This document shows, piece by piece, positions 15,441-43,512 of a DNA stretch of 64,000 nt. The notes beneath the pieces were generated by a model. That model did not search any database. It was not told the DNA's origin and saw only the letters and a list, made by a program, of their open reading frames with translations. This stretch comes from Geovibrio ferrireducens (GTDB lineage: Bacteria > Chrysiogenota > Deferribacteres > Deferribacterales > Geovibrionaceae), in assembly GCF_026226615.1 (NCBI RefSeq), contig NZ_JAJAPB010000001.1, positions 186,001 through 250,000 of the forward strand, given 5' to 3'. Position 1 is the stretch's first letter; the number at the start of each line of letters is the position of its first letter. The position numbers were made by a program, and so were the translations under genes.

Positions 15441-15617
15441 GAGCAGACGGGCTCACATCTGCTCCGCGGCAAAGGTAATGACAAAATCCGGAGATGCGCG
15501 ATTAATACTATCAATCTCCCCCCTGCCCCTCTTTAAGAAAGAGGGGTGTTTTGCCTTTGCGGAGCGAAGTTCGGCGCGAGCGTGTACGCTGAGCGGACAG
15601 GATGTACCGCTCAGCGT
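15441..15617 (+). repeat. Intergenic hairpin repeats between leuD and glyS, including an ACAGGATGT-loop hairpin
   Basis: The gap between the two genes (15233-15623) holds no ORF but three hairpins. GAGCAGA/TCTGCTC lies at 15441-15464. CCCCTCTTT/AAAGAGGGG lies at 15526-15546 and has no adjacent T-run for either gene. An 11-bp stem lies at 15586-15596 with 15607-15617, around the loop ACAGGATGTA. The last is preceded by GGAGCGAA and GCGCGAGCGTGTAC, the linker sequences of a repeat family also seen near 26.9, 27.1 and 39.2 kb. It lies just past the leuD stop. Confidence 0.75.
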
Positions 15618-15623
15618 TTATGG

Positions 15624-16223
15624 TCAAAACCTGTAAGGCAGTGCCGCCTCAAGCTCAGCTGTCTGCGCTCTGCCGGAGAGAAGCTGCGCCAGTGAGTCAT
15701 ATGTGCAGTCGAGGAAAGCCTTTCTTGCGCCGTCCTTTATGCCCACATTATATGTTTTGCCCCCTGCGGTGAGCGTTCTGCCCTCCACATCAAGCACAAA
15801 TTCCGCTTTGGGCTCTTTTTTGACCAGTGCCATGAGCTCCGCCCTTTCCGCATCAGGGAGAGTTACGCAGACTATGCCCAGCGTGGTTGAGTTGCCGAAG
15901 AATATCTCTGCGTAGCTTCCGGCGATTATAACATCATAGCCCGCACGGATGATTGCCTGCGGGGCATGCTCACGGGAGGAACCGCAGCCGAAGTTATTGC
16001 CGCTGATGATGAACCTTGCGCCTCTGTACTCAGGAGCATCCACCGGATGTCCGAGGGGTTTGCCCCCCTCACCGAAACGCTCGTCAAAGAAGAGCGCAAG
16101 TCCAAGACCGTCAAAAGTGACGCACTTGAGGTATCTGGCGGGGATAATTCTGTCCGTGTCTATATCATCTCCGGGAACGGGAACAGCCGTGCCCTTTACC
16201 TGTTTTATCGCTTCAAGCTTCAT
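15624..16223 (-). CDS. leuD: 3-isopropylmalate dehydratase small subunit
   Basis: LeuD is the swivelling domain of isopropylmalate isomerase, the second step of leucine synthesis. Diagnostic motifs are [31 protein letters not shown] and [13 protein letters not shown]. The 199-residue product matches the longer LeuD form. Its ATG overlaps the leuC stop (ATGA), so the two subunits are translationally coupled. Confidence 0.95.
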
Positions 16224-26401: not shown

Positions 26402-26851
26402 ATGATAAAGATTAAAAAAATACTTTACCCCACGGATTTTTCCGAGCCTTCAAAAGTTGCCCTTGAATATGCCGCTGAACTCGCCAGACAGTTCGGAGCG
26501 GAGCTTGAAATACTGCATGTTATGTTTGACGAAACTCAGGTGGTCTCCTTCTACCTGCCGCAGGTGACTATGCAGTCCCTCTCAACCGACATAGAAACAG
26601 GCTCGGCAAAGCAGCTTGATGACTTCATACAGAGCCAGCCCTCGCTTAAAGGTGTCAACTACACCACTAAGCTGATCAAAGGCACGCCGTTCATAGAAAT
26701 AACCAAACACGCAAAAGATACAGCCGCGGATATGATAGTGATCGGCACACACGGCAGAACAGGGCTTGACCATGTTCTTTTCGGGTCGACTGCTGAAAAA
26801 GTCGTCCGTAAAGCACCCTGCCCGGTATTTACAGTAAGGCCTGCGAAGTAG
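26402..26851 (+). CDS. Universal stress protein, UspA family
   Basis: A 149-residue single-domain Usp. It starts KIKKILYPTDFSEPSKVALE and has the ATP-binding motif G-x2-G-x9-G-S in GTHGRTGLDHVLFGST, so it should bind ATP. The ATG is chosen because GGAGG is six bases upstream. A GTG one codon earlier is possible. A TATAAT box lies at 26355-26360, with a poor -35. The last 20 codons are duplicated 171 bases downstream together with the adjacent repeat. Confidence 0.92.
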   Translation: MIKIKKILYPTDFSEPSKVALEYAAELARQFGAELEILHVMFDETQVVSFYLPQVTMQSLSTDIETGSAKQLDDFIQSQPSLKGVNYTTKLIKGTPFIEITKHAKDTAADMIVIGTHGRTGLDHVLFGSTAEKVVRKAPCPVFTVRPAK

Positions 26852-27111
26852 GGAGATTAATCAGCCTTACAATCAGAACATCCTGCCAGATTGTAAGGCA
26901 CGCTCGCAGCAGGATAAACCTGCCTTCGCTCCGCACGGCGCAGTTCCATCCATGGAACTGCGGCTGAAAAAGTCGTCCGTAAAGCGCCCTGCCCGGTATT
27001 TACCGTAAGACCTGCGAAGTAAGAAGGTTAATCAGCCTTACAATCAGAACATCCTGTCAGATTGTAAGGCACGCTCGCGGCAGGATAAACCTGCCTTCGC
27101 TCCGCACGGCG
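26792..27111 (+). repeat. 171-base tandem duplication of the uspA 3' end plus a hairpin repeat
   Basis: The segment starting GCTGAAAAAGTCGTCCGTAA at 26792 recurs at 26963 with a constant offset of 171 bases until 27111. Each unit holds the uspA tail and a mosaic hairpin element. Its main stem is GCCTTACAATC/GATTGTAAGGC (26864-26874 with 26889-26899, and 27035-27045 with 27060-27070), with a loop containing ACATCCTG(C/T)C. Then follow linker ACGCTCGC, a GCAGG/CCTGC hairpin, and linker TTCGCTCCGCACGGCG. In unit one this ends with GCAGTTCC/GGAACTGC around ATCCAT. Confidence 0.9.
26963..27022 (+). pseudogene. Remnant of a uspA 3' end
   Basis: Twenty codons including the stop encode exactly the C-terminal peptide of the upstream uspA (AEKVVRKAPCPVFTVRPAK). 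The four base differences from the intact gene are all silent: GCA/GCG, ACA/ACC, AGG/AGA and the stop TAG/TAA. No start or upstream domain is present, so it cannot be a functional gene. Confidence 0.8.
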
Positions 27112-27136
27112 AAGTAGGGAGAACTCTCAATATAAG

Positions 27137-27217
27137 GAGATTCTTCGCTGATGCTCAGAATGACGCGGCCGTAGCTGAACGCTGTGCGTCATTCTGAGGC
27201 CAAGGCCGAAGAATCTC
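27137..27217. repeat. Imperfect inverted repeat between uspA and a hypothetical gene
   Basis: The outer arms GAGATTCTTCG (27137-27147) and CGAAGAATCTC (27207-27217) and the inner arms CTCAGAATGACGC (27154-27166) and GCGTCATTCTGAG (27186-27198) pair perfectly, forming a long cruciform-capable palindrome. CTCAGAATGACGC also occurs at about 39014-39026 inside the 39-kb repeat mosaic. The wording resembles short palindromic repeats seen in many unrelated genomes (recalled, not searched). Confidence 0.8.
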
Positions 27218-27232
27218 TCTGTATAATAATAC

Positions 27233-27935: not shown

Positions 27936-27948
27936 TGCAAACTTTATA

Positions 27949-28046
27949 CTTATCAAGAGTGGTGGAGGGACAGGCCCGTTGAAACCACAGCAACCGCCCT
28001 TTGAGGAAAGGTGCTAATTCCTGCCCTGCACGATGGGGGAGATAAG
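27949..28046 (+). ncRNA. SAM-I (S-box) riboswitch
   Basis: The aptamer is unmistakable. P1 forms from CTTATC (27949-27954) and GATAAG (28041-28046). Conserved core pieces follow in order: AAGAG..GG.GGAGGGA, GGCCCGTTGAAACC, CAGCAACC, GGTGCTAATTCC and the final AGATAAG. Binding of S-adenosylmethionine should favour the downstream terminator and shut off metY-metX. Confidence 0.97.
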
Positions 28047-28067
28047 AACCGTTAAGACTACTCTAAC

Positions 28068-28099
28068 GCCTCTTTCCCTCAGGGATAGAGGCTTTTTTT
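28068..28099 (+). terminator. Riboswitch-controlled terminator
   Basis: GCCTCT (28068-28073) pairs with AGAGGC (28087-28092), followed by seven T. It is the expression platform of the SAM-I riboswitch, about 20 bases before metY. Confidence 0.85.
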
Positions 28100-28116
28100 G
28101 TTTCAGGAGGCAACCT

Positions 28117-29403
28117 ATGAGCAAGCACCGCATCGAAACCATAGCAGTCCACGGCGGACAGACACCCGACCCGGTTACGGGAGCCAGAGCCGTTCCCATA
28201 TACCAGACAACCGCATACAAGTTCCGTGATGCGGATCATGCTGCAAAACTGTTTGACCTTGAAGAGGCAGGCTACATATACACCCGCCTGAACAACCCCA
28301 CTGTCGAGGTGCTGGAAAACAGGATTGCCATGCTTGAGGGCGGAACAGGAGCCGTTGCCGCATCATCCGGCCAGTTTGCCGAGTTCATGGTTTTCTCCAC
28401 CATAGCAGAAGCCGGAGACGAAATAATCACCACCAACAGACTTTACGGCGGAACAAACAATCTGTTTTTCCACACTTTCAAAAAAATGGGGATTACCTTC
28501 CGCCCTTTTGACCAGAATAACCCCGATGAGATCAAAGCTCTGATAAATGATAAAACAAAGGCGGTTTACCTTGAGACTGTGGCTAACCCCGGAAACGACA
28601 TTGCAGACTTTGAGGCGATAGCCGCAATAGCCCATGAAAACGGTCTGCCCCTCGTTATAGACAATACGTACCCCACCCCTTTTCTCTGCCGTCCTAAGGA
28701 GTTCGGCGCGGATGTGGTGATCCACTCCGTTACCAAGTTCCTCGGCGGGCACGGAAACTCAATGGGAGGCATAGCCGTTGACCTCGGCACGTTCGACTGG
28801 GCAAAGAGCGGGCGCTTCCCCTCATTCACCACTCCGGATCCCAGCTACCACGGCATGGTGTATTCTGAGCGCTTCGGCAATATGGCACTTGCGGTCAAGA
28901 TGCGCGTACAGACTATGCGTGACATAGGCGGCTGCATGAGCCCCATGAACGCCTTTCTCCTTCTTCAGGGGCTTGAGACTCTGCATGTGCGTATGGAAAG
29001 GCATGTGGAAAATGCCCGGAAACTCGCCGCTTATTTACAGAAAAGCGACATGGTGGACTGGGTGAACTTCCCAGAGCTTGAAGGAAACCCGAACTGCGAA
29101 AGAGCCCGGAAATACATGCCCAAAGGAACAGGAGCAATGCTCAGCTTCGGCATCAAGGGCGGACAGAAAGCAGGCAGAGCCTTTATAGAAGGCGTGGAGC
29201 TTGCCACCCACCTCACCAATCTGGGCGATACGAGAACTCTGGTCACACACCCCGCAAGCACCACTCACCGCCAGCTTAATGCGGAACAGAAGGCAAAAGC
29301 GGGCATAACGGACGGGCTTATCCGCCTCTCTGTGGGCATAGAGCACATAGACGACATAATAGCCGATATAGAACAGGCATTTGCGAAAGCTAAGAAGGCA
29401 TAA
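28117..29403 (+). CDS. metY: O-acetylhomoserine aminocarboxypropyltransferase (sulfhydrylase)
   Basis: A PLP enzyme of the Cys/Met metabolism family that condenses O-acetylhomoserine with sulfide to homocysteine. Seen are TIAVHGGQTPDPVTGARAVP, YTRLNNPTVEVLENRIAMLE, and the PLP lysine in HSVTKFLGGHGNSMGG. The 428-residue length fits MetY rather than MetB (about 380). The ATG is preceded by AGGAGG. An upstream GTP-like leader reading frame overlaps the riboswitch and is rejected. Direct sulfhydrylation is consistent with cysK nearby and absence of metB here. Confidence 0.95.
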   Translation: MSKHRIETIAVHGGQTPDPVTGARAVPIYQTTAYKFRDADHAAKLFDLEEAGYIYTRLNNPTVEVLENRIAMLEGGTGAVAASSGQFAEFMVFSTIAEAGDEIITTNRLYGGTNNLFFHTFKKMGITFRPFDQNNPDEIKALINDKTKAVYLETVANPGNDIADFEAIAAIAHENGLPLVIDNTYPTPFLCRPKEFGADVVIHSVTKFLGGHGNSMGGIAVDLGTFDWAKSGRFPSFTTPDPSYHGMVYSERFGNMALAVKMRVQTMRDIGGCMSPMNAFLLLQGLETLHVRMERHVENARKLAAYLQKSDMVDWVNFPELEGNPNCERARKYMPKGTGAMLSFGIKGGQKAGRAFIEGVELATHLTNLGDTRTLVTHPASTTHRQLNAEQKAKAGITDGLIRLSVGIEHIDDIIADIEQAFAKAKKA

Positions 29404-38982: not shown

Positions 38983-39480
38983 GCATCAATTCCCAAAGCA
39001 GCGTAATGAAGGATCTCAGAATGACGCTCTGCTGTGTCACTGCGAGGAGCGGAGCGACGTGGCAGTCTTTCTCTGCGGAGTTCGCAATGATGTATACAAC
39101 TCCAGGGATGGAGTTGCGCCGTGCGAAGCGAAGCCTTGCCCTGCAAGGCGCGAGCGTGTACAGAAAAGGGACAGGACGTTCCCTTTTCTGCGGCAAAACA
39201 GAGATTGCTTCACCCTTTCAGGGTTCGCAATGACGTATTCGACTCCAGGGACGGAGTTGCGCCGTGCGTGATTCAGGCACTCAGGCACAGGGATGTGCCC
39301 GTGGAGTGCGTACCGGAGCGAATGCGAGGAACGCAAGCGTAACCAGAGCAGCAAGCAGTTTTACTGCGCAGGCTGCGAGTGAGAAGAAACTGCAGGACGC
39401 AGGTTTCTGCGAGCTATGGCAAAACAGACGTTCCCTTTTCTGCGGCAAGACGGATTGATCTTGACTTTCCATTTTAATCT
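38983..39480. repeat. Mosaic of hairpin repeats, about 500 bases
   Basis: There is no gene between pirin and yceD up to 39600. The stretch is assembled from modules. A CTCAGAATGACGC segment lies near 39014. GTCACTGCGAGGAGCGGAGC and TTCGCAATGA form an inverted pair near 39035-39090. CAACTCC-AGGGAT-GGAGTTG is at 39097-39116, linker CGCCGTGCGAAGCGAA, hairpin GCCTTGC/GCAAGGC (39133-39149), linker GCGAGCGTGTA, and CAGAAAAGGG/CCCTTTTCTG (39161-39190) around ACAGGACGTT. A second, degenerate series follows from 39240 (CGACTCC-AGGGAC-GGAGTTG) to an AGAAA/TTTCT hairpin with AGGAC loop at 39385-39408. 39481-39600 shows nothing clear. Confidence 0.85.
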
Positions 39481-43353: not shown

Positions 43354-43359
43354 ACCAAA

Positions 43360-43390
43360 CAACCCCATGGAAGGGGTTGCGCCGTGCGGA
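43360..43390 (+). repeat. Partial hairpin-mosaic repeat after fabD
   Basis: CAACCCC-ATGGAA-GGGGTTG (43360-43379) followed by CGCCGTGCGGA equals the first hairpin and linker of the elements at 39.1 and 26.9 kb, with a different stem sequence. Confidence 0.75.
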
Positions 43391-43512
43391 ACAGGCTATA
43401 AACTTTTGCACTAGGGTATTGTTAAGAGAAACCCTTTTTTAACGAAAAAAAAAGTGTTTCTCAAACTCTTCCCAAAAAACTGTATCTTAGAACAGTATGT
43501 ACAGTTTCCGAT
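43391..43512 (+). repeat. Direct repeat unit 1 between fabD and fabG, with R2 copy 2
   Basis: ACAGGCTATAAACTTTTGCA through GTTTCCGA recurs 250 bases downstream at 43641. It contains the R2 hairpin (43426-43482): GAGAAAC/GTTTCTC with T6/A9 tracts around AACG, followed by AAACTCTTCCCAAAAAACTG. Confidence 0.88.

Follow-up and report, generated by a model that had tools for sequence, protein, structure and literature searches.

The MIRU/VNTR loci of mycobacteria are dispersed intergenic elements in tandem arrays, and some integrative elements insert into the 3′ ends of genes while carrying a substitute end. Template switching at hairpins gives tandem duplications with breakpoints at palindromes. 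Integron attC arrays go with an integron integrase and GTTRRRY/RYYYAAC core sites. The REP/RAYT systems feature a palindrome of 20-40 nt accompanied by a GTAG or CGTC tag. The REP, BIME and REPIN elements, which go with a RAYT transposase, are described as many-copy intergenic palindromic elements that often form composite arrays (PMC2817692, PMC3116915, PMC3733652).

The locus described here lies in a window of 64,000 nt, i.e. the whole stretch of DNA analysed (G000, contig C1:186001-250000; G000 is a draft genome of 46 contigs). As an earlier note on this DNA had reported, the 3′ end of uspA is duplicated together with a repeat: two units of 153 nt (26792-26944 and 26963-27115) match with 9 mismatches and include a 65-nt tail of the gene. 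The figure of 171 bases given for their distance is correct as the start-to-start spacing, but is not a gap. It is the only tandem array in the window with a score of at least 100 and is thus not a chance occurrence. The array reads tail-E-tail-E′-tail, where E denotes the repeat element, and then runs into downstream sequence (Table 1). The shared tail is flush with the repeat on both sides, in agreement with the proposal that the repeat was the joining point, and the true break of the second repeat is at 27110/27111, where the third tail piece, absent from the earlier note, starts. The 12-nt GAAGTAGGGAGA occurs twice on the + strand of the window.

Codon comparison upholds the earlier count of four differences in the 60 shared coding bases, all of them silent, namely: GCA/GCG at 26815, ACA/ACC at 26833, AGG/AGA at 26839 and, in the stop codon, TAG/TAA at 26851. 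The other five mismatches are at 26853 and 26856 (just past the stop), 26886 and 26908 (within the repeat) and 26941 (beyond the break). Tail copy and gene are 93% identical at the DNA level. A second inverted repeat closely follows the array, and similar GTCATTGCGAAC/GAAGCAATCTC repeats adjoin many E copies.

Table 1. Features of the window, and tandem uspA homologues in two other genomes.
Feature	Position	Strand	Details
uspA (universal stress protein), intact	26402-26851	+	ORF; stop TAG; Pfam PF00582, E 4.7e-36, residues 4-146
F0, duplicated uspA 3′ end	26792-26856	+	60 coding nt incl. stop, plus 5 nt
E1, full repeat element	26857-26962	+	model R1 107.6 bits, E 5.2e-31
E1 hairpin A	26864-26899		ACATCCTG in loop
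E1 conserved ACGCTCGC	26900-26907
E1 hairpin B	26909-26923
E1 conserved TTCGCTCCGCACGGC	26925-26939
E1 hairpin C	26941-26960
F1, second uspA-end copy	26963-27027	+	coding part 26963-27022, stop TAA; flush with E1 3′ end
E2′, second element	27028-27110	+	model R1 81.1 bits; broken off ahead of hairpin C
F2′, third uspA-end piece (GAAGTAGGGAGA)	27111-27122	+	12 nt; identical to 26845-26856; runs into downstream sequence
Second inverted repeat	27130-27224		GAGATTCTTCG ... CGAAGAATCTC
SAM riboswitch	27947-28048	+	RF00162, 88.5 bits; upstream of / overlapping start of ORF 28033-29403
E cluster	39093-39421	-	39093-39200 complete; 39239-39268 and 39278-39421 partial or diverged
Diverged solitary E	15522-15626	-	45.6 bits
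Diverged solitary E	43356-43453	-	34.2 bits
Tandem uspA homologues	G013:C1:313321-314254
Tandem uspA homologues	G020:C1:101908-102841

E is a dispersed family of ~108 nt with three covarying hairpins, A, B and C. In an alignment of 62 copies, near-invariant ACGCTCGC and TTCGCTNCGCACGG blocks lie amid the hairpins, and 21 of the 26 predicted pairs show two-sided compensatory change; these copies were selected for a complete hairpin C, so that structure is favoured there, but many compensations are also present in A and B. Folding of three copies as single-stranded DNA gave z-scores of -2.5, -6.7 and -6.6. The window's own genome holds 52 matches to the repeat sequence used as a query. We compared three genomes of the genus, one per species: G000, G001 (a MAG) and G002 (complete, single contig); the covariance model found at least 150, at least 143 and at least 150 matches in them, with at most 150 candidates scored. 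With these three counted in, 19 of 59 genomes have a match to the model, with weaker relatives in the family and order; G003, G007 and G042, which belong to other genera, have diverged matches, some of them in tandem. Seven E loci scanned against Rfam matched no family within E, and E was therefore not assigned to a known Rfam RNA; the sole match above the gathering threshold was the SAM riboswitch outside it. Literature listings contained no description of E, which is weak evidence.

At L189, L009 and L213, hairpin C starts right after the stop codon of a gene, and E may on this account have a role at mRNA 3′ ends. At about 1480-1640 of L128 (G007, another genus), a diverged E is flanked on its two sides by copies of a gene start (ATGATCAAAATACTCC / ATGATTGAAATACTCC), which have one silent and one non-silent difference.

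The uspA locus has many counterparts. Across the three genus genomes, duplication beside E affects 25 recognisable gene ends, which belong to 22 genes: uspA; DJ-1/PfpI (its start); a POR-family subunit, a PHP-domain gene and prfA (two species each); a glycyl-radical enzyme; IMPDH; an HldE-like enzyme; two histidine kinases; phosphoglycerate mutase; proC; ilvH; cheR; DAHP synthase; coaE; enolase; hypF; arginine decarboxylase; a Tex-like gene; a radical SAM gene; and an ACT-domain gene. The same arrangement is thus found at 21 genes other than uspA, and at many loci the junctions are flush with the E edges. All 18 ends that were run against Pfam gave matches, including all 14 with differences; gene names without a Pfam match behind them were read from sequence only. 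The pool comprised about 130 stretches, nearly all picked for holding E, plus 400 kb of G002 taken regardless of E. Source rows were ORFs of at least 115 aa overlapping the duplicated flank, and the 25 genes were picked by eye once the counts were visible. Antisense, overlapping or array-spanning frames were dropped, with silent:non-silent counts of, e.g., 0:0 (L016), 0:1 (L027), 3:12 (L029), 0:4 (L155), 0:1 (L158), 1:3 (L163), 1:4 (L202) and 0:2 (L220).

Three genes are affected in two species: prfA (L009/L091), the POR-family subunit (L013/L200) and the PHP-domain gene (L213/L089). For POR and PHP, the duplicated segment begins at the same codon in both species, yet each copy resembles its own gene, which would mean either that an old duplication is shared and has been kept similar or that events recurred at a single site.

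The association with tandem duplication extends beyond gene ends. At 40 loci chosen for strong or closely spaced matches, the units found by TRF are mostly 91-228 nt and consist of E plus local sequence. In the 400 kb of G002, there are 43 matches to the E model (45-46 cores by pattern) in 23 clusters, 16 of which have at least two copies, and one copy lies wholly inside an ORF. Of the TRF rows in this stretch with a period of at least 50, 12 of 15 contain E, as against a mean of 0.42 and a maximum of 4 in 2000 trials of random placement. Direct repeats of 21-67 nt that flank E, usually adjoining its edges, exceed the 99% null at 5 of the 31 solitary clusters and at 6 of the 49 array clusters. 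Among 68 junction rows, in which some loci were entered twice, 23 place the left end of the repeated region 36-48 nt ahead of the ACGCTCGC core, i.e. at the 5′ edge of E; another 23 place it at the core itself, and the first unit there has a different hairpin A. The right end is variable or coincides with hairpin C (its base, loop or end). In the mosaic arrays L085, L094, L103 and L112, the hairpin A of the first unit differs from the rest or the types alternate, as if recombination had occurred within the conserved core. Because of these mosaics and the left ends at the core, no single simple mechanism fits all arrays.

Silent-only differences had been taken in the earlier note as unlike the decay of a dead copy, and the wider count agrees. 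Over the 25 ends, gene and copy differ by 26 silent and 6 non-silent distinct codon variants; 11 ends have no variants, and the six non-silent ones fall in L104, L183, L196 and L197. Under random change, the expected silent fraction is 0.21-0.31, depending on transition bias. The probability of at least 26 silent variants in 32 is 5e-10 for random change (transition factor 4) and 1.5e-5 for a constrained gene and a neutral copy changing at equal rates, both values being approximate as variants were treated as unlinked and genes were picked by eye. The silent:non-silent counts are 11:0 in G000, 9:4 in G001 and 6:2 in G002, and strain-mixed assembly could add silent differences in the draft G000 and the MAG G001; G002 alone gives P of 0.008 (neutral) and 0.08 (gene plus copy). 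By codon position 1, 2 and 3, the variants number 0/356, 6/357 and 26/366, compared to 20/905 in the non-coding flank and 39/2431 in E. Had the copies been free throughout, positions 1 and 2 should, from these rates, carry ~30 changes; 6 were observed.

The direction of change bears on the same point. At L200, at least three of five silent changes are on the side of the copy, judged against a relative, as are both of two at the DJ-1 gene (judged against G000); the copies themselves thus changed silently. uspA itself changed at two of its four sites, as judged against the relatives, and silent changes therefore fall on both sides. L028 is mixed: at three of four sites the copy matches G002 and the gene matches G001. 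Neutral decay does not explain the 26:6 bias, and this bias indicates that the tail copies probably belonged to working genes up to a recent time.

Both relatives, G001 and G002, have a single uspA at the syntenic place, with the same neighbours on both sides and no tail copy. The check proposed in the earlier note, a search for two intact tandem uspA genes in close relatives, thus returned one gene in each; tandem pairs of homologues were found in 2 of the 59 genomes searched (G013 and G020), both from another family of the order. Their proteins are 57-67% identical to the UspA of the window, too distant in comparison with a tail of 93% DNA identity. Polarising the four uspA differences gave a mixed result: at 26839 and 26851 the copy agrees with both relatives, at a third site it matches G002 only, and at the fourth it is uspA that matches G001. 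F0 and F2′ agree at all three variable sites and F1 alone differs; since its TAA stop is also common to both relatives, F1 looks like another allele of uspA. In G002, an E with different stems lies farther downstream of uspA, at a distance other than that in the window; this and the truncation of E2′ speak against a firm order of events at uspA.

Taken together, we consider it probable that the second uspA tail is a by-product of the dispersed three-hairpin element E, which would be tandemly duplicated with neighbouring DNA, and that the copy came from a diverged allele through strain exchange. E would be duplicated with some tens of bases of its neighbour, in this case the end of uspA. One end of the duplication would lie at an edge or loop of an E hairpin, since the folded strand may stall replication or be cut; stalling with template switching, or cutting of the hairpin, are possible origins. 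One copy would then derive from a diverged allele of the same gene, through exchange with another strain, either during the duplication or later, and F1 would be the foreign piece, which fits the agreement of F0 and F2′ against it. Because both copies were apparently functional while diverging and the relatives have a single gene at the uspA place, the divergence most likely took place in different cells, with exchange then bringing the copies together. We infer both duplication and exchange from one genome per species, with a hypothetical donor allele.

Alternatively, E could be a mobile element that makes long target duplications (roughly 40-65 nt), tail-E-tail being the duplicated target site. 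L213, L013 and L200 fit this, as one E lies there between two gene ends and the second end continues downstream without E. A broken second E is found, however, at other one-E loci (L028, DJ-1 in G002 and CoaE at L189), as tandem duplication predicts; long target duplications were therefore dropped as the account of all loci with flanking repeats and kept as a rival. None of the three genus genomes has a Y1 transposase, and a reverse transcriptase (PF00078) occurs in only one of them, so that we regard this reading as possible but unlikely. The reverse transcriptase is at G001:C3:114810-115451, and a target-primed (retro)element was set aside, as only G001 of the three many-copy genomes encodes one. 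A bolder variant, which we consider distinctly unlikely, is that E is a mobile or recombination-active structured element shuttling gene ends between strains, with excised units of E plus gene end reintegrating by homology into the same gene of another cell. If so, each array would record alleles met by the lineage, silent-only differences would be a signature of exchange, and the arrays could serve as recorders of gene flow.

A simple recent duplication followed by neutral decay, in which the all-silent pattern is luck or reflects changes in the intact gene, gains something from the two sites where the copy still agrees with both relatives and the change lies in uspA, and four silent changes alone (P ~0.007, 0.29 to the fourth) are not extreme for one finding among many. 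It appears quite improbable in view of the genome-wide 26 to 6 (22 to 6 without uspA), the copy-side silent changes at L200 and DJ-1, and the agreement of F2′ with uspA at the stop codon. An assembly artefact, with reads of two strains joined at the repeat, would explain differences that resemble those between strains, and G000 is in 46 contigs, several of which start near an E copy (C2, C4, C6 and C9 begin within about 160 nt of one). We consider it very improbable, because structures of the same kind, with identical or near-identical units, are found in the single-contig G002. We give almost no credence to the remaining reading, that of the earlier note, in which a complete second tandem uspA was deleted except for its tail: silent-only differences and the pairs in G013 and G020 speak for it, but the tail starts exactly at the edge of E1, and a lost gene at each of the 21 other genes with the same arrangement is hardly credible. 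With one uspA and no tail copy in both relatives, a second tandem gene is neither supported nor needed. Pure chance is ruled out by the array score and the silent-bias statistics.

Most long-period arrays of the 400-kb stretch thus carry a single repeat family, which repeatedly duplicates housekeeping-gene ends. As a test among neutral decay, target duplication and strain exchange, the silent bias can be applied to any set of strains. From the contig starts close to E copies, E arrays seem to break draft assemblies, and they can mislead annotation.

With respect to the systems outlined above, E shares the described traits of REP, BIME and REPIN, but differs in having three hairpins around a fixed core and array units that include neighbouring gene ends. 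A RAYT gene (Y1_Tnp, PF01797) is present in none of the three genus genomes (controls were positive in 5 of 14), which rules out a RAYT-driven REP, and neither the GTAG nor the CGTC tag is found at the ends of the E majority consensus (62 copies, by eye). By eye, the consensus ends also have no apparent terminal inverted repeat of the MITE kind, and flanking repeats, where present, are 21-67 nt; no GTTRRRY/RYYYAAC motif is apparent in the consensus either. Like MIRU/VNTR loci, E forms dispersed tandem arrays, as at prfA with two E in G002 and at least one complete E in G000, but its unit is the element plus a locus-specific flank, coding ends included. As with integrative elements at 3′ ends, the gene end stands on either side of the insert with silent differences; E, in contrast, is only ~108 nt and carries no gene, and which end is duplicated varies by locus. 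The breakpoints at palindromes are those of template switching at hairpins, whereas here one dispersed family marks 12 of the 15 long-period arrays of the stretch examined. The E family is unnamed; it is associated with duplicated gene ends, of which the uspA tail represents one instance.
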